Shown here in pieces: positions 1,387 to 28,508 of a stretch of DNA of 36,542 nt. The position numbers and the translations under genes are program-made. Source of the stretch: a virus. Position 1 is the first letter of the stretch. Each line of letters opens with the position of its first letter. The stretch lies in IMG/VR virus record IMGVR_UViG_3300032245_000750, positions 1 through 36,542 of that record; one strand, given 5' to 3'. The notes beneath the pieces were generated by a model. It was not told the origin of the DNA, did no database searches, and worked only from the letters and a program-made list of their open reading frames with translations.

Positions 1387-3780
1387 ATGCCATCATCTTT
1401 TGGACAATATCAATCTGGAATTGACGCATCAACTGGCAATTTAGTTCCTGCTTATTCAAAAATGGCAGAATTAACTGCAAACTCTGTTGCAGGATTTGGT
1501 CAATCTCTTGCTGAAGGGATTCAAAACTATCAAAAAAATTCTCAAGAAAATGAAATGATTGACCAAGAGGCTCAAGGTCTTGGTATGCAATTAAAGCAGT
1601 TTCACGATATGTTTGGAAACAATCCAGAGTATGCTCCATTTGCAGAACAATTAAATCAATATATAGATAAAATTTCTAAGATTCCAGAAATGTCTTTGGC
1701 TCAAAAGCGTGGTGCATTAAATGGTGCTAAGGTTGCTTTTTCTAACATTGGCAGTCAGTTGCAAATGTTCAATACAATGAAAACAATGAATGAAGAGCGT
1801 GTAGCGGCTGAAGCATTAAACCCTAAAAATAATCCTGTTTTTGAAATTAAAGATAAAATTGTTCCTATGGGGCTTAATAATTTTGATAAATCTAAATCAT
1901 ATTTATCAAATGAAACAGAATTTATAAATGCTCTTAACAACTTAGAAGAACAAGGAGTTAGTGTTGATAAACCTGCTAAACTTGAAGAATATCGTAAGCG
2001 TGTTGAAGAAAGTGCAACAGAACTATCAAAGACTAATCCTGTTGGTTTGACAATTATTGACCAAGTTAATGCTGCTCGTAAAATTAGTAATTCTAAAAAT
2101 TTAGAAGAACAAATAGCATTAAGTGATGTAATTAGTAAACCTGCTTATACTCCATCAGAGCAAATGGTTAAAACACCAACTATACTTCAAGATAATTTAA
2201 ACAAATATTTAACAACAACTGATTCAAAAGGAAATATTGTTCCAAATGAATCATATGGTAATTTGCAAAAGAATCTTTCTGGAAATCCATTAAATGTACA
2301 AAATAAAAATAGATATTTATTTGAAAAGAAATTAGAACAAGATGCAAAATCTTTAGGAATTTGGGATGAAGAAGAAAAATTAAAAGCACAAAAGTTAGAT
2401 AATGCACTTGAAAAAGGTCAATTTGAGGCTGCAAGAGTAAGACCAAATGAAAATGCTTATTATCAAAATATTTTAAATAAAATTAATGAACAAAAAAATT
2501 CTAAACAAATTGAATTAAGAAAATCATTACTTGAAGATAAAGATGTTCAATCAAAAATTGCTGAATATGCAAAAGGCAATTTTGATGAAGTTGGTATTCC
2601 ATCTAAAGCACTAGAACTTGCTAATAAACTAGGATTTGACAGAAAAGATTATGGTTTTAACTCAAATGCAGAAACCATATCTGAAGCACTTCCTTTGGGA
2701 ATCGGTGCTGTGGTTCTTCCAATGCAATATGGAGAAATTAAAGAAAAAATACCTCCAGCATTGGTTGATTTCTTTTCAAGAATTAAAGAAGGAAAAATTA
2801 ATAAAGAAACTGCAACTGTTGATGTTGGAAAACCAAAAATTTCAGAAAATCAACAACAGCAAATTAGTCGTTCTAAACCAATTTGGGAACAGACACAATC
2901 TGAACTTGAAAATAGTTCAGTTTCAGAAAAAATTAATGAACCTGATAAACTTTCTTCTGAAGGATTAAAACTTAATCCAATAAATGTAACTACAAAAGAA
3001 GAAGTTCCTATTTCTCAAGAAGTTCGCAATCAAAAGGCTATTGATTTTATGACTCAGCGTTTAGGTTATCGTGATGCTAGTGGTAATCTTGTTACTCCTT
3101 CTGCTGTTAATAAATTATTTGGAAGCAATGAACCAACTTCTAGATATACAAAAGAAGGTGATAGAATTGTTGAATGGAAAAATCCAGAAACAGGAAAAAT
3201 TGAGTCTCATTTTGTAGCGGCTAAAGAACAAAAATCTGGTTCTGAGTATGTTTTTGGTGTTCAAAATCCAAAAACTGGAGAATTGCAATATGAAAAACCA
3301 GTAAAAAGTCTTGATGTTTCTATTAGAGGAAAAGGTGAATTTGCAACTCCAAATGGTGCAGAGAAATTTAAAGAAATATTAGCAAAGTCTGCTATGGTAG
3401 TTAATGCAATGGATAAGGTAAAGCAAATTGTAAAAGATAATCCGTTAAAAACTAAAATTCCTTGGACTGATGCACAAGTTGAAATTGTTTCACATCAATC
3501 TAAAGCAATAGCATCAATGAAAGAAATATTAGCACTTGATAGACTTAGTGACAAAGATGTTCAAATTATTTTAGAAAGAATACCTAATGGAACTAGTTGG
3601 ATGAGGACTCCAAGTCAAACTAAAATCCAAGCAGATAATGTTATTAATGATGTTTACGCATTGATTAAAAATTTAGGAGATGTTTACAAACTTGATGTTG
3701 TTACTCCAAGCAACTCAAATAGTTCATTAGAAAAAGATGCTCGTGAAGCATTTATTTCTGAACAATCATCTAATAAATAA
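1387..3780 (+). CDS. Internal virion protein, T7 gp15-like (putative)
   Basis: With the ATG at 1387 the product has 797 residues. A longer reading from 1327 would overlap the previous gene and add an unrelated hydrophobic leader, so I prefer 1387, four bases after the previous stop. The N-terminal 130 residues are a long amphipathic helical region (MAELTANSVAGFGQSL and on) typical of internal virion and tail-associated proteins; the rest is hydrophilic and largely helical, rich in Lys, Asn, Glu and Gln, with no signal peptide. T7 gp15 has 747 residues and forms the periplasmic part of the DNA ejection tube. Size and place between the gp14-like and giant genes support the same role. The gene is very AT-rich at the third codon position. 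Confidence 0.6.
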   Translation: MPSSFGQYQSGIDASTGNLVPAYSKMAELTANSVAGFGQSLAEGIQNYQKNSQENEMIDQEAQGLGMQLKQFHDMFGNNPEYAPFAEQLNQYIDKISKIPEMSLAQKRGALNGAKVAFSNIGSQLQMFNTMKTMNEERVAAEALNPKNNPVFEIKDKIVPMGLNNFDKSKSYLSNETEFINALNNLEEQGVSVDKPAKLEEYRKRVEESATELSKTNPVGLTIIDQVNAARKISNSKNLEEQIALSDVISKPAYTPSEQMVKTPTILQDNLNKYLTTTDSKGNIVPNESYGNLQKNLSGNPLNVQNKNRYLFEKKLEQDAKSLGIWDEEEKLKAQKLDNALEKGQFEAARVRPNENAYYQNILNKINEQKNSKQIELRKSLLEDKDVQSKIAEYAKGNFDEVGIPSKALELANKLGFDRKDYGFNSNAETISEALPLGIGAVVLPMQYGEIKEKIPPALVDFFSRIKEGKINKETATVDVGKPKISENQQQQISRSKPIWEQTQSELENSSVSEKINEPDKLSSEGLKLNPINVTTKEEVPISQEVRNQKAIDFMTQRLGYRDASGNLVTPSAVNKLFGSNEPTSRYTKEGDRIVEWKNPETGKIESHFVAAKEQKSGSEYVFGVQNPKTGELQYEKPVKSLDVSIRGKGEFATPNGAEKFKEILAKSAMVVNAMDKVKQIVKDNPLKTKIPWTDAQVEIVSHQSKAIASMKEILALDRLSDKDVQIILERIPNGTSWMRTPSQTKIQADNVINDVYALIKNLGDVYKLDVVTPSNSNSSLEKDAREAFISEQSSNK

Positions 3781-3791
3781 AACTTAATCTT

Positions 3792-6700
3792 ATGGCAGAT
3801 TTATATATCAACCCACAAGGTCAGTTAATTAATAATGATTCTCAATCTATTACTGGAAATGAAAAGATAGATAAATATCTTAACACATTACCAGCAGAGC
3901 AAAGAGAAGGTGCGTTAAAAAAAATTACCGCTCCATTAAACGGAGAAGAGATTGCTAAAAAATTAAAAGAAGATATTAATTGGATTCCAAACAAACAAGA
4001 GTTTGATTTATTTAATAAATATCAGTCGCAAAAAGAAACTGATATTGTAGATGGTTTATCTTTATTTACTGATGCTGCTAGTGCTATGTATGATATAGCA
4101 GGAAATGTAATTTCTTCTACATACGACCATCCGCTAGAAAATGCTCTTAAAATTGCTCCTAGTATATTAGAAGGTGGAGTTCAAAACATTCGTAATTGGT
4201 ATGGTATGCTTGCTCAAAGCCAAGACCCTAGTAGTGTTTTGTTTAAATGGAAAAATGTATTATTAAGAGATGGAAGTGATGATGCTTATAAGCAATTTTT
4301 AGAAGCACGAGATTTTGCAAGAGAATCTGTTGGTTATGAAACTGGTGAAAAAACAATGCTTGTTAATAAAGACTATATTGACCCAGCATTAACACAAGCG
4401 GCTGCTATTATAGTTGACCCTATGTTTTATGGTAGTTTTTTAGTTGGCGGTGGAGGTGCTGGTGTTACTCAAAAAGTAGCACAAATTTTAGGAATGTCTG
4501 AGCGTTTGGCTAAGGCTAGTGCTTTTGCTGAAAAGATGAAAGGTGCTGTATATGGAGGTGCTCTTAAATATGGCGTAGGAGTTCCTTTAGAGTTCATTGG
4601 TGACATCACTAGGGGCACTATTGATAAAGCCGTAGAAGGCGGTTCTAAGGTGCTAGAAGGGGCTACTGGAGTATCAGCACAAGACATTAAAACTGCTACT
4701 AAAGTTGGAGGATTTGGAAGTATTGCTACAGGTGTTCCATATTTATCTCCTACTTCTAAAGTTTATTTAGGTGCTGGATTTTCATCTGGATTAGGTGAGG
4801 CTCTTAGTGCTACTGGTGAGCAAATAATGAAAAACGGAGGAAAGCGTGGTTTGCTGTCATTTGCTGAACAGGCTATTGCTGAATCTGACGCTATGCTTGC
4901 TAAAGGTGGTTCTGGGTTAACTCCACAGGCTCGTAAATTGCTTAATGTAATTAATAAAGCAGACCCTATGTTTTCTTATGCTGGTTCTTTTCTTGAAGGT
5001 GGAGCACACGGAGCGGTTGTTGGTGGTGCATTAGGATACCTTGGTGGTGGTGAAGAAGGTGCTTGGGGTGGGGCGGGTGCTGGATTTGGCATTGGTTCGT
5101 TGGGTGGAGTTGCTGGTAGAGCAATGAGCAATATTGGAGGTGGATTAGAAAAACAGCGTTTAGCAGTCCAAATGGATATGCTTATGCCTATGCTCAAAGA
5201 TACTGACCCAAATAAATATAGTGCTATTGAATTGCTTAGAAAGGCTAGTCGTGAGGCTGGCAATCCAGATTGGGTAGTTGATAGATACGCTGTTGCACTT
5301 GATAAAATTGCACCAGCATCCAGAATGAAGGTAGGTGGAAAAGTTGCTCACGAGGCTGAACTTCGTGCAAAAGGACAAGACCCAAAGATTTACGATGGAT
5401 ACGAGCGTGACGCAAATGGTGAATATAAATTAGATAAAGATGGTAACAAAATTCGCTTAAGAGATGCTGAAGGATTTACTATTCCAACTGTTGATGAGTA
5501 TAATCGTGCTGCTGGATTTACTATTCAAAGCGATATAAACAACAATATCAAAATACACATCAATACAGACAAAATTGGTGAAATTAAAAACACACTTCCA
5601 CACGAATTATTCCACGCAGTATTTCGTGAATTAGGAATGAAAAATGAATTTAAAGATAGAATTGCTGAACATATTTTAGGAACATTTGATGAAAAAGGTA
5701 ATCAAATTAAGCCTCCAAGTATTAGCAAATTTGAGGCTGAAAGTTTCTTCACTAAATACATAAATAGTGCTTATGCTGGTACTGACAAGCAAGAGCGTTT
5801 AGCAAAACTTAAACAAGCGTTAGACGAATATTATAGCACAGGAAAGATGACTGTTATGGAGTCAGATGGAGTAACTCCTGTTCTTCATCATTTAAATGAA
5901 GAATTTGGTGCTTATTATTGGACTCATTTTTTAAACGATAAACCTGTAGATTATTTATTCCGTGGTGGGGAATTAGAAGGAATTCGTGGTGTTCTTGATT
6001 CTATTAAAAACAGATGGCAAGATTATATGGAACGCAAAGTTGGTGGTGTAAATGGTGGATTTGATTTTGCTCGTGATAAATATATTAACCCTTCCTTTAA
6101 AGATAAAGACGGAAAGCGTATTCGTGTAAGTGCATTAGATTATATGATGCAGGATTTAATTAGAACTAAATCTGCTGCTTCTAGAGGTCAAGCATTTGAT
6201 TTTAATAAACTTAGTCCAGAAGGACAGGAAGCATATGTTAATGCATCTGGTAATAGTATAGCATTTGAACCACCAAAAGTTAAAGGTGGTAAATACAAAG
6301 TTAGAACTGCAGAACAACAAAAAAAGATTCGTGTTAAACGAGCAGATGCTATGCACAAAGGTCTTGAGGCATTTAGAACTTCAAATCCAGAAATGCTTCG
6401 TGTTAGAGATGCTAACGGAAATGACATAGGAGGGCTTTCACCAGATGCTGATGGAAACTATACTGGATTAATTCCAGATGCTATTCTTGATTATTTTGTT
6501 AAATCTGGTCATATTGATAAAGTAGAAGCAGAGCGTATTAAATTGCTTCAAAAAGCGGCTAGAGGAGAAACTTCTAGTAATGTATTTGAATTCATAGAAT
6601 ATACTGGTGAAACAATGCACACAGGCATTGATTCTAATGTTCGTGCTAAATCGCCATATGTTCCCACTAAAAACAGAGTTGTAATTTTAACTAATTTTGA

Positions 6701-9700
6701 AACTAAAATTACTCCTAATGATTATGGATTTTACGCTCATACATTAGATTACAGACACTTACAATTTAGACAAGATAATTTATGGAAAGACCCTAAGGTT
6801 CGTGCGGCTTGGGGTGATGATAAAGATGCTTTTACTGCTGACTTATTTAGATATTTTAAGAACGCTAGTCAGCCAGATGGAGTTAGATTACCATCTGCTC
6901 AGTTATGGTCTGAAAATGGTGAATACAAACGAAATGTTTTGCATCAAGTAGCAGGACTAGAAACACCTGCATCTGGAACTTTAAATCCATCTTTAGGTGA
7001 TATTAAAGGTGATATGTTCAGCACTTATCGTCAATTCAGAACAGACAGAATGAGCCAAGAGCGTATGGGTAGTGAGAAAATTCACCTACAAGGTAAAGAT
7101 GCTATTGATTACATTCGTCATAATATGATGCCTTCAGAGATGTCTAATGAGCCTACTCCAAATGGTCATATCTATACTCATCCTAATGGATATAAATTCT
7201 TTAAGACTGAAAATGGAATTAAGGCTGTAAAGCCAGATGGTTCAGTTGTTGGTATTTATAAAACAATGGAAGAGGCTGTAAAGAAATCTGATATTATTTA
7301 TCAGAAAGAGAACCCCAATGGTAAGCCTATTCCTAGCGTAGATAATATCAGACAAGAGCCTTTTGACCCTCCAGAGACTCTAAAGCAATATATTGAAAGA
7401 AAGTTAAATAATTTATTTACTACTAGTGAAGAAAATATTTCATCTATTTTAAATTGGAAACCAAATAATGAATTAACAAATTTAATTGAAAGCAAAGATT
7501 TTCAAAATTTTTTAAACAATCACGATGCTAGTTTAGATATAGTTAGATATAATCATATTATTGATAAACAACAAACAACAAAAAATACTGTATCTAAATA
7601 TTTAGAAGTACAATATAATAAAGAACAACAGGCAGTTAATCCTACATTTGTATCTGGTCTTAGCGTAGCACTTGATAAAATACTTTCTGCTAATGTTAAT
7701 AAAGAAGGAACTATTCAAGCCAGTCGTTTGCTTAATTTAATGGATAGAGCATCTGGTGGAGACATAGGAAAAATACTCACAGAATCTAATGCTATTGGAT
7801 TTACAGATTGGTTAAAATCTAAAAAAGACTCTCGTGTATCTGAGGCTGAAATTCGTCAATACATTAAAGACAATGGTATCAAAGTAAGTTTAGACCCAAG
7901 AACTGATATTCGTGGCAATGAATGGTATGGTGGTGGTTTTGATACATCTAGATATACAGCAGAAGGTAAAAGAGATGGATACTATACTTTTGTAGCAAGA
8001 ATTAATCCAGAACACGCTCACGGAGTAGAAGGACATTTTGGAGGAGATAGTATTGTTCATATTCGAGCAACTACTCGTACTGACGCACAAGGTCGTAAAG
8101 TGCTGTTTGTTGAGGAGATTCAATCTATCAATACTGCCCGTGAAGAACTTTCTCCATCTCAGCGTTCTGTAGTTCAATCTGAAATTAAATCTTTAAAAGA
8201 ACTTAAAAACATTGCAAGTGAATTTAATAAAGTAAGTAAATTGCATTATGAGTCAAAGGGTACTATGCTTAAACGAGCATTAGATATTGCTAGAAAAGAA
8301 GGAATTGAAGTTTTAAAAGAATATGAAATGAAAGGAGAAGTAACAAATGATTTTAGAAAATTAGTAGATATTATTGCTTCTTCAGATATTCTAAAATTAG
8401 AAAAAATACCTAAATTAAGTAATAACAGTTCAATAGAAATAATGCGTGATGGTAAGTATGAAATTAAGCGTCTTGTTTCTGAGCGTGAGTCTCAACTTGC
8501 TAAAGTTAAAAGCAACAAGCCACTTCAAGATTTCAACGAAACAGTTAAAATAGCAAGCAGGACTATTATGCGTAAGGCTGTTGAACTCGGTGCTGACAGG
8601 GTTGTTTTAGTTAGACCAGAGGATATGCACCCAGATGTCTCTACTAATGCTGAAGGTGAGCGTTTTGTGGACACGCTTTATGGCAGAGATATACCTGCAA
8701 TGATGAACGCTGAGTTAAAGAAGTATGGCAAAAAGTTAGCACCTGCTAGAAACTATGGAAATCAAGACCCTAATGCTCCTATAAAATTATCTGGAAGAAT
8801 GGTAGGTAGTTCTGATAAATTATACAGCAAAGAAGCACAAACTAAACAAATACTTTCAGAGTCACTAGGTTACGACATCACCCAAGAGATGAAGCAGAAG
8901 GCTGGCAGAAGTCAGACTTTTATGATGCCATCTGAAAATAGTGATATTATTTATACTGGGAGAAGATTTGTTGGACAAGTAAAAGGAGGAATGTGGGCTA
9001 CTAGAGATTTTAAAAGATTAGAAAATGCTGGTGGAATAAAAGCATATAGAATAAGTCCAGATGCTCGTGTTTTAGTTCTTCATAAAACAAAATTTGATAA
9101 GAATGGAAACTATCTTTATTCTGATGTTAATAAATCTGGCTTTAATGAATTAAGAAAAATTGCTTTAGAGTCTAATCAAGATTTAGATTTTTGGGATAAT
9201 AAAGAACAATTATTTAGTAATCCAGAGTTGTTAGATGGAGACAGTTTATTTCCATCTTTAGATACAGATGAAACTATGCGTATGTCTGATAATGAAATCG
9301 AAGATAAAAACGCAGAGTTTCCAGAACAACAAACAAGAAATTCTATAAATAAACGAGATTTATTACAAGCAGTTAAAGATGCTGGTTATGACATAATTAA
9401 GACTACAAATATTGAAGGTGAAGCAACATTAGTTTTAAATAAAAATGCTGTAACTCCATTAACTGTTGATGATAAATTACCAACTCATTATATGCCCTCT
9501 GAAGGCGAGTACAGAAGTGGCGATAATTACTGGAAGGCTAAAGAGAATAAATTTGAAGGTGTAGATGAAAATGGTCAAACATATAGACTAGCATCTGCAA
9601 TTATTAATGGTAAAGTAGAATTTAATCCAGACCCAGACAATGTTTCTTGGATGGATATTGGGCATAGTAATATGCGTATGCCTAATCAAAAGGTATATGA

Positions 9701-11696
9701 GGCGGGCAATTTAAGAAATAAACCTGTAACATCACCAGATGATTATATGGCTAAAATGCGTGATGGTTTGTGGGCTATTGCATCAAATAAACCTAATGAT
9801 GTAATGATGTATAAACCACCCGCAAATGCACGACCAAGACTAGAAGCAATTACACACGATGAATGGTTGAGAGGTTTTAGGGAAGGTGGTCACGGACGCT
9901 ATATATATGATATTACAACTGGACGATACGAAAAACCTATTTACAAAGATGGTAAATTAATTGAAAGGGGCAGGTTGTCTATGCAAGCCTATGGTGAAAT
10001 TACTTCTTTAGAACAGGCTAAAAAAATTAAAGAACAAGTTGCTAAAAAACTAGGTTTTAAGTCTGAAGATTTTGATGCTTATGTTTTTGATAGTGGAGTA
10101 AAAGAAAAATTAGGCATAAGTCGTAAAGACCAACTGCCTATTAAGTTTATGCCAGCAGAAAGTTCTGAACCTATTCCATTTAAAGACTTTATTGCCAAAA
10201 CAGAGCAAGAAGTAGGTGCGGCTTGGTCATTACCTTTCTATAAAAAATTAGAAGGTTCAGTTATTTCTGGGGCTGATATTGGAAATTTGCGTATTCTTAA
10301 AGTAACAGAAGATAAAAATAAACAACCTAAATTAACTGTAATTAATGAAGAAAAATATCAAAAGATTCTTAAAAATTACCCAGAAGGAAAACCAAGAGAT
10401 AATGAAATTCGTCAAAGTGCTGAAGAATATAAAGCGTGGGAATTTCGTAAAGGAGAATTTAGGCATCCATTATTTACATTACAAAACAATATAGAAAATA
10501 TTAAGTTCGATGCTTCATCTGCAAAGCCAGTTAAGCAAGTTACATTTAATGCACAGGCTATCAGTTCTGCTGTCAGTTCTATTGCTGATGATTTAATAGG
10601 AATGGAGTTTGATAAGACTTCTACTACTACTTTATTTGGAAGAAAATCTAAGACTGGAGAAGTCAAAGGAATTATTCAGAACTTACAAGATGCAGTACAG
10701 GAATTAAACAAGGCAAGAACGCCAGAAGAAAAGTCTAGTGCTGTAGATAAAGTTAATTCTTATGTTGAAGAACTTAGGTCATTAAAAGATGAACTACAAG
10801 ATAAGCACGATAATACTCCAGAATCATTTCAAGAAACTGATACTTACACTAATCGAGAAGAAGCAATAGATGCACTTGATAATGCTATTACTGATTTAGA
10901 AAATAGTGCTGAAGATACAAGTGGTGGCTCTACTGGAATTAAAAATATGATGCCAGCCGAAGGCGAGCAGGGTGGACGAACTTATACAAATACAGAATTT
11001 AATTCTTTATTTATTGGAAGATATGCACAACAAAATAAAGACTTGCTTAAAAATCTTACAATTAAAGTAACTGAAAAGAGTGATGGATTTGAAGTAAGAC
11101 TATATGACCAAAAATCTAAAACACCAAGTTTGCATATTGGAAGTTTAAAAATTGATAGAGCAAATGATTCTAGTTCTGCAAGTATTGAAAATGCTGACAT
11201 AAATGGTTCTTACAGAAATAAAGGAATTGGTAAACTTTTATATAGTGAAGCAGTTGAAAGATTAAGAAGTTTAGGTGTTACTGATGTTGATGGTATGATT
11301 GTTGATGAATTTAATAGACCTGTAAAAATTCGTAAAAAAATTATTGATGAAGAAAATAATCGTATTGAAAATAAAACAAGAATAAATACTAATGGAAGAA
11401 CTTATACATCTGCTGTAAGAACTGATGATTATGGAAATCAACAAAAAGATGTATCTTCTACATTAAGACAAGATGCTTATTATATGCCATCAGAGCAAGC
11501 ACAGGCTTGGCGTGACTTCAAAGCAGAGCCTACTACCGAAGGAAACAGCATCTTTAAGAACGCTATGAACTTTGTGATTATCCAAGCGAACAAAAAATAC
11601 AAGGTGTATAATCCACAGAAAGCATTGTTAGGTATTTACACAGATTTAGACCAAGCAAAACGGAGAGTTCAACGAGAAGAACCTAAACAACGATGA
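3792..11696 (+). CDS. Giant multidomain virion protein (large polyvalent protein) with zincin motif, LPD-like, GNAT and repeated MPxE junctions
   Basis: The product has 2634 residues and lies where T7 has gp16. Residues 190-460 hold several Gly/Ala-rich hydrophobic stretches that could cross membranes. HELFH at 604-608, with a glutamate-rich EEFGAYYW about 100 residues later, is a zinc metallopeptidase signature. VEEIQS near 1440-1445, followed by a helix and ELGADRVVLVRPEDM, is the pattern of a domain found in large polyvalent phage proteins. Residues about 1715-1900 look like a compact alpha/beta domain ending in AGYDIIK. Residues about 2390-2540 carry a GNAT acetyltransferase core with RNKGIGKLL. 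Six motifs M-P-(S/A)-E stand at 1113, 1712, 1901, 2120, 2387 and 2565, between modules. Segments 1133-1168 and 2600-2630 are related to each other. The protein is probably packaged and ejected into the host; which domains act there is unknown. Confidence 0.75.
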   Translation: MADLYINPQGQLINNDSQSITGNEKIDKYLNTLPAEQREGALKKITAPLNGEEIAKKLKEDINWIPNKQEFDLFNKYQSQKETDIVDGLSLFTDAASAMYDIAGNVISSTYDHPLENALKIAPSILEGGVQNIRNWYGMLAQSQDPSSVLFKWKNVLLRDGSDDAYKQFLEARDFARESVGYETGEKTMLVNKDYIDPALTQAAAIIVDPMFYGSFLVGGGGAGVTQKVAQILGMSERLAKASAFAEKMKGAVYGGALKYGVGVPLEFIGDITRGTIDKAVEGGSKVLEGATGVSAQDIKTATKVGGFGSIATGVPYLSPTSKVYLGAGFSSGLGEALSATGEQIMKNGGKRGLLSFAEQAIAESDAMLAKGGSGLTPQARKLLNVINKADPMFSYAGSFLEGGAHGAVVGGALGYLGGGEEGAWGGAGAGFGIGSLGGVAGRAMSNIGGGLEKQRLAVQMDMLMPMLKDTDPNKYSAIELLRKASREAGNPDWVVDRYAVALDKIAPASRMKVGGKVAHEAELRAKGQDPKIYDGYERDANGEYKLDKDGNKIRLRDAEGFTIPTVDEYNRAAGFTIQSDINNNIKIHINTDKIGEIKNTLPHELFHAVFRELGMKNEFKDRIAEHILGTFDEKGNQIKPPSISKFEAESFFTKYINSAYAGTDKQERLAKLKQALDEYYSTGKMTVMESDGVTPVLHHLNEEFGAYYWTHFLNDKPVDYLFRGGELEGIRGVLDSIKNRWQDYMERKVGGVNGGFDFARDKYINPSFKDKDGKRIRVSALDYMMQDLIRTKSAASRGQAFDFNKLSPEGQEAYVNASGNSIAFEPPKVKGGKYKVRTAEQQKKIRVKRADAMHKGLEAFRTSNPEMLRVRDANGNDIGGLSPDADGNYTGLIPDAILDYFVKSGHIDKVEAERIKLLQKAARGETSSNVFEFIEYTGETMHTGIDSNVRAKSPYVPTKNRVVILTNFETKITPNDYGFYAHTLDYRHLQFRQDNLWKDPKVRAAWGDDKDAFTADLFRYFKNASQPDGVRLPSAQLWSENGEYKRNVLHQVAGLETPASGTLNPSLGDIKGDMFSTYRQFRTDRMSQERMGSEKIHLQGKDAIDYIRHNMMPSEMSNEPTPNGHIYTHPNGYKFFKTENGIKAVKPDGSVVGIYKTMEEAVKKSDIIYQKENPNGKPIPSVDNIRQEPFDPPETLKQYIERKLNNLFTTSEENISSILNWKPNNELTNLIESKDFQNFLNNHDASLDIVRYNHIIDKQQTTKNTVSKYLEVQYNKEQQAVNPTFVSGLSVALDKILSANVNKEGTIQASRLLNLMDRASGGDIGKILTESNAIGFTDWLKSKKDSRVSEAEIRQYIKDNGIKVSLDPRTDIRGNEWYGGGFDTSRYTAEGKRDGYYTFVARINPEHAHGVEGHFGGDSIVHIRATTRTDAQGRKVLFVEEIQSINTAREELSPSQRSVVQSEIKSLKELKNIASEFNKVSKLHYESKGTMLKRALDIARKEGIEVLKEYEMKGEVTNDFRKLVDIIASSDILKLEKIPKLSNNSSIEIMRDGKYEIKRLVSERESQLAKVKSNKPLQDFNETVKIASRTIMRKAVELGADRVVLVRPEDMHPDVSTNAEGERFVDTLYGRDIPAMMNAELKKYGKKLAPARNYGNQDPNAPIKLSGRMVGSSDKLYSKEAQTKQILSESLGYDITQEMKQKAGRSQTFMMPSENSDIIYTGRRFVGQVKGGMWATRDFKRLENAGGIKAYRISPDARVLVLHKTKFDKNGNYLYSDVNKSGFNELRKIALESNQDLDFWDNKEQLFSNPELLDGDSLFPSLDTDETMRMSDNEIEDKNAEFPEQQTRNSINKRDLLQAVKDAGYDIIKTTNIEGEATLVLNKNAVTPLTVDDKLPTHYMPSEGEYRSGDNYWKAKENKFEGVDENGQTYRLASAIINGKVEFNPDPDNVSWMDIGHSNMRMPNQKVYEAGNLRNKPVTSPDDYMAKMRDGLWAIASNKPNDVMMYKPPANARPRLEAITHDEWLRGFREGGHGRYIYDITTGRYEKPIYKDGKLIERGRLSMQAYGEITSLEQAKKIKEQVAKKLGFKSEDFDAYVFDSGVKEKLGISRKDQLPIKFMPAESSEPIPFKDFIAKTEQEVGAAWSLPFYKKLEGSVISGADIGNLRILKVTEDKNKQPKLTVINEEKYQKILKNYPEGKPRDNEIRQSAEEYKAWEFRKGEFRHPLFTLQNNIENIKFDASSAKPVKQVTFNAQAISSAVSSIADDLIGMEFDKTSTTTLFGRKSKTGEVKGIIQNLQDAVQELNKARTPEEKSSAVDKVNSYVEELRSLKDELQDKHDNTPESFQETDTYTNREEAIDALDNAITDLENSAEDTSGGSTGIKNMMPAEGEQGGRTYTNTEFNSLFIGRYAQQNKDLLKNLTIKVTEKSDGFEVRLYDQKSKTPSLHIGSLKIDRANDSSSASIENADINGSYRNKGIGKLLYSEAVERLRSLGVTDVDGMIVDEFNRPVKIRKKIIDEENNRIENKTRINTNGRTYTSAVRTDDYGNQQKDVSSTLRQDAYYMPSEQAQAWRDFKAEPTTEGNSIFKNAMNFVIIQANKKYKVYNPQKALLGIYTDLDQAKRRVQREEPKQR

Positions 11697-27034: not shown

Positions 27035-27106
27035 CGGTCTGTAGTTCAACGGATAGAACATTCGCCTTCTAAGCGAATAATCTTGGTTCGATTCCAAGCA
27101 GACCGA
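27035..27106 (+). tRNA. tRNA-Arg (anticodon UCU)
   Basis: All arms form: acceptor CGGTCTG/CAGACCG (7 pairs), D arm GTTC/GAAC with loop AACGGATA, anticodon arm TTCGC/GCGAA with loop CTTCTAA giving anticodon TCT, four-base variable region, and T arm CTTGG/CCAAG with loop TTCGATT. It reads AGA, a codon used often in these phage genes. The discriminator is A and no CCA is encoded, so CCA must be added by the host. It is followed 63 bases later by the first late gene. Confidence 0.9.
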
Positions 27107-27745: not shown

Positions 27746-27895
27746 ATGCCATTAAAAAAAAGTGCGTCAAAAGAAGCATTTACACAGAACCTTCATAAAG
27801 AACTTGGTGTCGGTAAGCCACTTAAACAGGCTATTGCTATTGCTTATTCTGTTAAGCGTAATGCTATGGCTGGTGGTAGAAAAAAACGAAAGTAA
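27746..27895 (+). CDS. Conserved 49-residue basic phage protein
   Basis: The product MPLKKSASKEAFTQNLHKEL, followed by GKPLKQAIAIAYSVKRNAM and a basic RKKRK end, belongs to a very common family of small phage proteins with the pattern MPLKKG-S---I--N---E---GKP-KQA-AIAL. It often lies close to the packaging or structural genes, but the role is not known. It starts one base after the previous stop, and the endolysin gene starts one base after its own stop. Confidence 0.7.
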   Translation: MPLKKSASKEAFTQNLHKELGVGKPLKQAIAIAYSVKRNAMAGGRKKRK

Positions 27896-27896
27896 T

Positions 27897-28508
27897 ATGC
27901 CACAAAAACCAAATCAAGCAAAACCAACAAAGCCAACAAAGCCAGCGTACAATTACGATTGGGCTGAACCTGTTTATAGAGAACTGGAAAAGGCAGGGTT
28001 TACTCCATTAGAACAACGAAACATTATTTGGAACTTGATGGCTGAAAGCAAAGGAAAGTTAGTTGACGAAGTTAATAATAAATCAACATATAGGGGTCGT
28101 GGATATATTCAATTAACTGGATTAAATAATTATAAACATTTTGGTAAAATGCTTGGAATTGATTTAGAAAACAATCCAGAACTAGCAAACGACCCAGAAA
28201 TTGCGGCTAAGATTGTTCCACTATTTTACGCTGAGAATAAAAAATGGAGAAAAATTAAAGGTAACTATGAGGATTTTGATAATGTTGTTAAAGCAACAGC
28301 ACCAGCGTTCTATAAAAAAGAAGGAGATAGTGTTATTAGAATTAACAAGTTAAAAGAAGATGGAATCGAGCCTCCAGTATTAAGAGAGCCTGTTAAAAAG
28401 CCTATTGAAAAGAAAGTTGCTATGGATGAACCAATGGAGCAATTGCCAAGATTATCTTTAGATGCAAATGGTGTGCAATCGTTTGATGTTAGACCCTCAG
28501 ATGCTTAA
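27897..28508 (+). CDS. GH19-type endolysin
   Basis: With the ATG at 27897 the product has 203 residues. YRGRGYIQLTGLNNYKHFG near residue 66 with NPELANDPEIAAKIVPLFYAEN after it is the core of glycoside hydrolase family 19 as found in phage lysozymes. The glutamate in LMAES near residue 47 is the probable catalytic acid. The N-terminus is low-complexity (Lys/Pro/Thr), without signal peptide, so export would need the holin at 11.7 kb. The C-terminal 50 residues are a proline-rich tail of unknown use. It is far from the holin in this linear map, but both are late plus-strand genes. Confidence 0.8.
   Translation: MPQKPNQAKPTKPTKPAYNYDWAEPVYRELEKAGFTPLEQRNIIWNLMAESKGKLVDEVNNKSTYRGRGYIQLTGLNNYKHFGKMLGIDLENNPELANDPEIAAKIVPLFYAENKKWRKIKGNYEDFDNVVKATAPAFYKKEGDSVIRINKLKEDGIEPPVLREPVKKPIEKKVAMDEPMEQLPRLSLDANGVQSFDVRPSDA

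Follow-up and report, generated by a model that had tools for sequence, protein, structure and literature searches.

We analyzed a stretch of viral DNA (positions 1 to 36,542 of IMG/VR record IMGVR_UViG_3300032245_000750; the whole 36,542 nucleotides are called the window), in which an open reading frame (ORF) on the plus strand at 3792-11696 encodes a giant protein of 2634 residues. Short motifs divide this protein into modules behind a conserved, zincin-containing head. The protein is probably a self-processing polyvalent effector protein whose cut sites form a code that co-evolves with its own zincin. On balance, we also favor the broader view that this code is private to each lineage and evolving, in that all cut sites would change along with the built-in protease, traded modules would be re-addressed to the local version, and two or more distant head families would share the arrangement.

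Border motif and its lineage versions

The window protein contains exactly six copies of MP[SA]E, with Met at residues 1113, 1712, 1901, 2120, 2387, and 2565 and with M, M, Y, F, M, and Y, in that order, directly before it. Count and positions are those given in an earlier note on this DNA, which was made from the letters alone and held chance clustering to be very unlikely. Shuffling confirmed that judgment: in 3000 shuffles of the protein, the motif occurred 0.023 times on average and at most twice, and the version preceded by a hydrophobic residue occurred 0.005 times on average and at most once. The protein has two other MP dipeptides (MPM at 465 and MPN at 1963). No Pfam family above cut-off was found in the whole window protein.

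MP[SA]E is one lineage's version of a general border motif, which reads QPAE, KPAE, SPxE, HPNE, or KVSD elsewhere. Neither tblastn against INPHARED (50,697 phage records) nor a search of GTDB genomes with a head profile returned a relative of the giant protein. Related IMG/VR contigs were reached via the portal protein of the window, and five of them carry a complete giant protein; its head (1-1170) shows about 32-36% identity, its last 65 residues show about 50%, and its middle is mostly replaced. A head profile then gave 56 loci (handles beginning with L below), and further profiles enlarged the set and brought in a second head family at greater distance. Repeated MPSE is missing from the first relatives, the matching borders of which bear a different version of the motif. 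The site homologous to residue 1113 reads NFHPNE, NWSPNE, NYKPSE, NFQPSE, NWKPSE, or NFMPDE, and further copies with the matching residue follow downstream (e.g., eight QP sites in L075, seven KP sites in L050, and six MP sites in L087). The general form is [RKNHW]-[FYWMHL]-X-P-small-E, where X is set by lineage (M, Q, K, S, or H). Across 39 non-redundant proteins, this form matched 10 times in the first 1000 residues of each (39,000 in total) versus 162 times in the remaining 70,908. X is concerted within a protein, agreeing in 76% of site pairs versus 23% after shuffling (maximum of 33% in 5000 trials). Head trees require two or more changes for each of M, Q, K, and S. In the clade L112-L123, the whole motif has changed to [FY]KVSD at three to five borders, with loss of Pro and replacement of Glu by Asp.

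M and Q are mixed at the borders of L078, L079, L080, L087, L086, and L089, which would suit either interchangeability of the two residues or an ongoing switch. Borders of the K lineages hold almost no M or Q.

The second head family comprises 24 non-redundant proteins, all with HELFH. Here, not one [FYW]MP was counted in the 21,675 residues that precede the first border, against 93 in the 22,405 residues that begin with it. The core R-[FYW]-M-P is constant, and its flanks recombine freely: an SPD start is found behind five upstream tails, and a GDVR tail is found before six starts.

The earlier note had placed the motifs between regions of different composition and had proposed aligning related giant proteins to see whether motifs and module borders coincide. 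They do, on evidence that goes beyond composition. Between proteins, 40% of left ends and 36% of right ends of local alignments fell within 15 residues of a motif, compared with 8% expected for random sites (at most 12.5% in 500 trials). Relatives keep the head and the C terminus, and the middle is swapped module by module. Segments between motifs cluster into module families, the members of which stand behind different X. For example, one family of 27 GNAT-like modules is found behind M, Q, K, and S sites, and the module family 'YQGGDDYYKPKKN' is found behind Q, S, and M in clusters, with KP-lineage homologs in L063 and L064. A module with an LPIK-F end keeps that tail while X goes from M to Q to K. 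X goes with the host protein, not with the module. Both ART-PolyVal (PF18760) and Acetyltransf_1 scored above cut-off in modules of relatives, and the ART-PolyVal domains of L063 and L073 lie between motifs.

Modules are plainly exchanged at the motif, and the motif starts with Met in the window lineage; both facts would suit a scar or tool of recombination, made of short DNA homology at the joints or of fused start codons (ATG-CCN) and having no role in the protein. This origin is very improbable and nearly excluded. X is non-Met in most lineages, is concerted across the borders of one protein, and co-varies with a head residue described below. Moreover, the site codons are close to synonymous-random: agreement between different sites of one gene was 0.40 for Pro codons (versus 0.35 for random Pro codons) and 0.54 for Glu codons (versus 0.53 for random Glu codons). 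Own-lineage motifs were absent from other ORFs of at least 100 amino acids near the giant genes (170,000 residues, spurious frames included). Because of this absence and the near-random codons, the motif is taken to be a property of the giant protein alone and not to be a repeat at the DNA level. On the codon evidence, recent internal duplication was also rejected. Internal translation starts at the motif ATG were considered as well and rejected, since no clear, well-spaced Shine-Dalgarno sequence was seen upstream by eye and Met is absent there in most lineages.

The zincin-like domain and residue 574

The head carries the HExxH signature of zincins together with downstream Glu residues. H604, E605, H608, and E703/E704 are invariant in 43 of 43 aligned heads, and catalysis is therefore implied. 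From sequence, either E703 or E704 would be the metal-binding Glu. In a structural search with the head (VIA-align), the top 16 rows were lethal-factor-type chains and their relatives (Z 5.8-6.5), some of which cover non-catalytic domains of those chains. A lower row matched the C-terminal part of the phage N4 virion RNA polymerase (vRNAP; Z 4.4). A Pfam match of the zincin domain to the zinc peptidase family DUF5700 was weak and below cut-off, and Foldseek with the head alone gave no significant match.

Among 944 head columns, the one that best tracks X is residue 574, thirty residues N-terminal to HExxH (score of 0.77 versus 0.51 for the runner-up). In permutations of X among lineages that corrected for relatedness and kept the top-scoring column of every round, the family-wise P value of this column was 0.0008, and it was 0.003-0.019 with related lineages merged or dropped. 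The column still ranked first after the columns of a mini-domain behind the first border had been added. All X=K lineages (five, or four with two related ones merged) have Glu at 574, both X=Q lineages have Lys apart from L065, both X=M lineages have Ala, and the main clades of X=S and X=H have Asn. L099, which stood outside the co-variation test, combines A574 with X=M. Pairing of Glu with Lys is the chemistry that a specificity pocket would need, and residue 574, near the active site in sequence, is a candidate reader of X.

Several observations weigh against a self-processing protein with residue 574 as its reader. Residue 574 is Glu or Asp in a second X=S lineage (L045/L048), Ala in the X=Q protein L065, and Gly in L109 of the H lineage. 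On trees, independent Lys/non-Lys pairs number only 3-5, and these are nearly all concordant but too few for significance. A simpler four-pair permutation test on nine lineages was not significant, and the significance of the co-variation appeared only once more lineages were added. Acidic columns common to the first two K lineages were no commoner than such columns in other clade pairs. Some M-lineage proteins mix M and Q sites, as do some Q-lineage proteins. The S and H lineages hold only 2-3 motifs, and their last border (L033-L037) is a repetitive proline-rich linker (VPPVVP, PPDVP) that lacks the motif. The match to the zincin fold reaches only Z 6.5, and such scores alone are no proof of a fold. 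Finally, N4 vRNAP bears a zincin and is packaged unprocessed (PMC5512222).

The intact packaging of N4 vRNAP, with its HExxH domain, would also suit a motif that is never cut and serves as a docking or packing element bound by the zincin-like head, for example to keep modules ejectable or to thread the protein through the tail. Binding of this kind would leave the same pattern of co-evolution with the head, and the prediction for motif 1 is loop-like and not clearly disordered. We consider docking unlikely given the catalysis implied by the invariant HExxH and Glu residues, and given that the sites lie between domains, where cuts would be productive.

The placement of the sites comes from two AlphaFold2 models. 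The earlier note had named motifs inside folded domains as the finding that would speak against it; in the models, as assessed for motifs 1, 4, 5, and 6, the motifs lie in a loop or between domains. For residues 470-1182 (mean predicted local distance difference test score [pLDDT] of 76), motif 1 is predicted in a loop between the last head helix and the mini-domain (block pLDDT of 59). For residues 1896-2634, motifs 4, 5, and 6 fall in segments with pLDDT of <50 (213-272, 480-499, and 669-671 in model numbering) that separate a module, a helical module, a GNAT fold, and the C-terminal mini-domain. The alignment for this second model consisted of fragments trimmed of some motifs, although the rows at motif 6 kept that motif, and the low confidence of the linkers may be partly technical for this reason.

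Proposed mechanism and known systems

A conserved, zincin-bearing head is followed by exchangeable effector modules (GNAT in the window protein; ADP-ribosyltransferase, among others, in relatives), and related mini-domains flank this array on both sides. We propose that the head's own zincin cuts at the border motifs, in cis or between copies, and thereby frees the modules as separate effectors. X would be the specificity letter of the lineage and may be read by residue 574, where Glu would recognize Lys and different residues would recognize Gln, Met, and Ser. A newly gained module would have to take on the local X because each junction holds the site of its lineage. The earlier note had offered two alternatives, a protease site or a mark of module boundaries, and had pointed to the HELFH zincin as a candidate protease. 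These alternatives fit one model. Motif-to-motif exchange supports the boundary mark and co-variation with the zincin supports the protease site, with the zincin as the candidate enzyme. Cleavage itself, its timing, and the release of modules are what we infer from this evidence, with the scissile bond most likely beside the aromatic residue.

A different protease, from the phage prohead or the host, could also cut the motif. The motif has Glu at its end, with Gly as the usual next residue in relatives, and gp245 of phage SPN3US cuts head proteins after A-x-E (PMC10052503). We regard such an enzyme as improbable here. The border motif is X-P-small-E and not A-x-E, so that P3 would be Pro instead of Ala, and one clade ends in Asp (K-V-S-D). 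The absence of own-lineage motifs from other ORFs near the giant gene also speaks against it, as does a Pfam search that showed no protease family among ten other window proteins tested. Furthermore, the top co-varying column lies in the protein's own zincin, in a test that spanned head columns only.

A polyvalent protein with a zincin is a known kind of protein. Like polyvalent proteins (PMC5512222), the window protein is a giant multidomain protein, probably one of invasion, that joins a zincin-like domain with effector domains (the GNAT fold here, ART-PolyVal in L063 and L073), and domain content and order vary among its relatives. Iyer et al. (2017) proposed that the zincin processes polyvalent proteins into functional units, and no cleavage motif is described in the available part of that account; the border motif, the lineage-specific X, and the co-variation with the zincin are what is seen here. 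For the border motif and its code, no earlier description was found in the open-licence literature.

Three other systems offer partial parallels. First, N4 vRNAP (gp50; PMC12633501) is a giant podovirus protein that has an HExxH domain and is ejected, as the window protein probably is, but no RNA polymerase was recognized in the window protein, and the domain order differs. Second, the ejection proteins of SPN3US (PMC10052503) are packaged, ejected, and cleaved at a short motif ending in Glu. In SPN3US, however, a separate head protease trims mainly N-terminal propeptides, whereas the sites in the window protein lie between its many modules and the candidate protease is part of the chain itself. 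Third, DdrB and DarA of phage P1 are antirestriction polyvalent proteins packaged in the head, a fate that the window protein would share, and DdrB bears a zincin and is processed (PMC5512222). No repeated border motif is described for the P1 proteins in the available part of that paper.

With the border motif come candidate sites, a candidate residue for specificity, and natural variants whose specificities would be expected to differ predictably, and the 2017 idea of zincin processing thereby becomes directly testable. Giant phage proteins could be split into modules from sequence alone, exposing new effector domains, many without any Pfam match. If the proposed mechanism is true, modules are freely tradable yet must be re-addressed to the code of the lineage that receives them.

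Genomic context and features

The giant gene comes after two internal-virion-protein-like ORFs; at their place, the related podovirus phiM5 encodes internal virion proteins that were found in its particle proteome. Because the capsid and gene order of the window resemble those of podoviruses such as phiM5, the giant protein is probably packaged in the head and ejected into bacteria, as judged from gene position. The closest capsid relative is phage C75C1 (L212), the giant protein of which lacks HExxH. That protein, CDS0001 of 2769 residues, has a repeat of another kind, Y..P.F.V, in nine copies between residues 1326 and 2323.

Features of the giant protein in window coordinates
Feature	Position	Strand	Evidence
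Conserved head, residues 1-1105, zincin-containing	3792..7106	+	Full-length alignment with >40 relatives, about 30-36% identity
Zincin-like metallopeptidase domain, about residues 560-770	5469..6101	+	Invariant HExxH and E703/E704; structural matches
Residue 574, Ala in window protein	5511..5513	+	Top head position for co-variation with X
HELFH active-site motif, residues 604-608	5601..5615	+	Sequence motif
Border motif 1, MMPSE, residues 1112-1116	7125..7139	+	Homologous site RN[WFYM]xPxE in all lineages
Mini-domain behind border 1, about 1117-1180	7140..7331	+	Homologous to C-terminal mini-domain of relatives
Module region, 1181-1710	7332..8921	+	Partial matches in L055, L086, L087, L071; no Pfam family
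Border motif 2, MMPSE, 1711-1715	8922..8936	+	Motif scan
Module, 1716-1899	8937..9488	+	No relative found
Border motif 3, YMPSE, 1900-1904	9489..9503	+	Motif scan and module comparison
Module, 1905-2118	9504..10145	+	Border-to-border homologs behind QP, SP, KP in L071, L074, L066, L045, L063
Border motif 4, FMPAE, 2119-2123	10146..10160	+	Linker with pLDDT <50
Module, 2124-2385, long helices in part	10161..10946	+	Homologs in X=K proteins L050-L054, L082, L084
Border motif 5, MMPAE, 2386-2390	10947..10961	+	Linker with pLDDT <50
GNAT acetyltransferase-like module, 2391-2563	10962..11480	+	Foldseek GNAT matches, best E 8.6e-4; 27-member module cluster
Border motif 6, YMPSE, 2564-2568	11481..11495	+	pLDDT <50 dip separating two folded domains
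C-terminal mini-domain, 2569-2634	11496..11693	+	50-60% identity to C termini of relatives; pLDDT 84-96

The mini-domains at 7140-7331 and 11496-11693 (about 55-65 residues) are related to each other, as if bracketing the module array. This paired layout is found in this family and apparently also in the second head family.

The ORF upstream of the giant gene (1387-3780) most likely starts with MPSSFG at ATG 1387 rather than at GTG 1327, with the preceding stop codon at 1382; the likeness of this start to the border motif is probably due to chance. Elsewhere in the window, a tRNA-Arg (TCT) gene lies at 27035-27106, between early-side ORFs and packaging genes, and a GH19 chitinase-like protein, probably the lysin, is encoded at 27762-28508, directly before the terminase.
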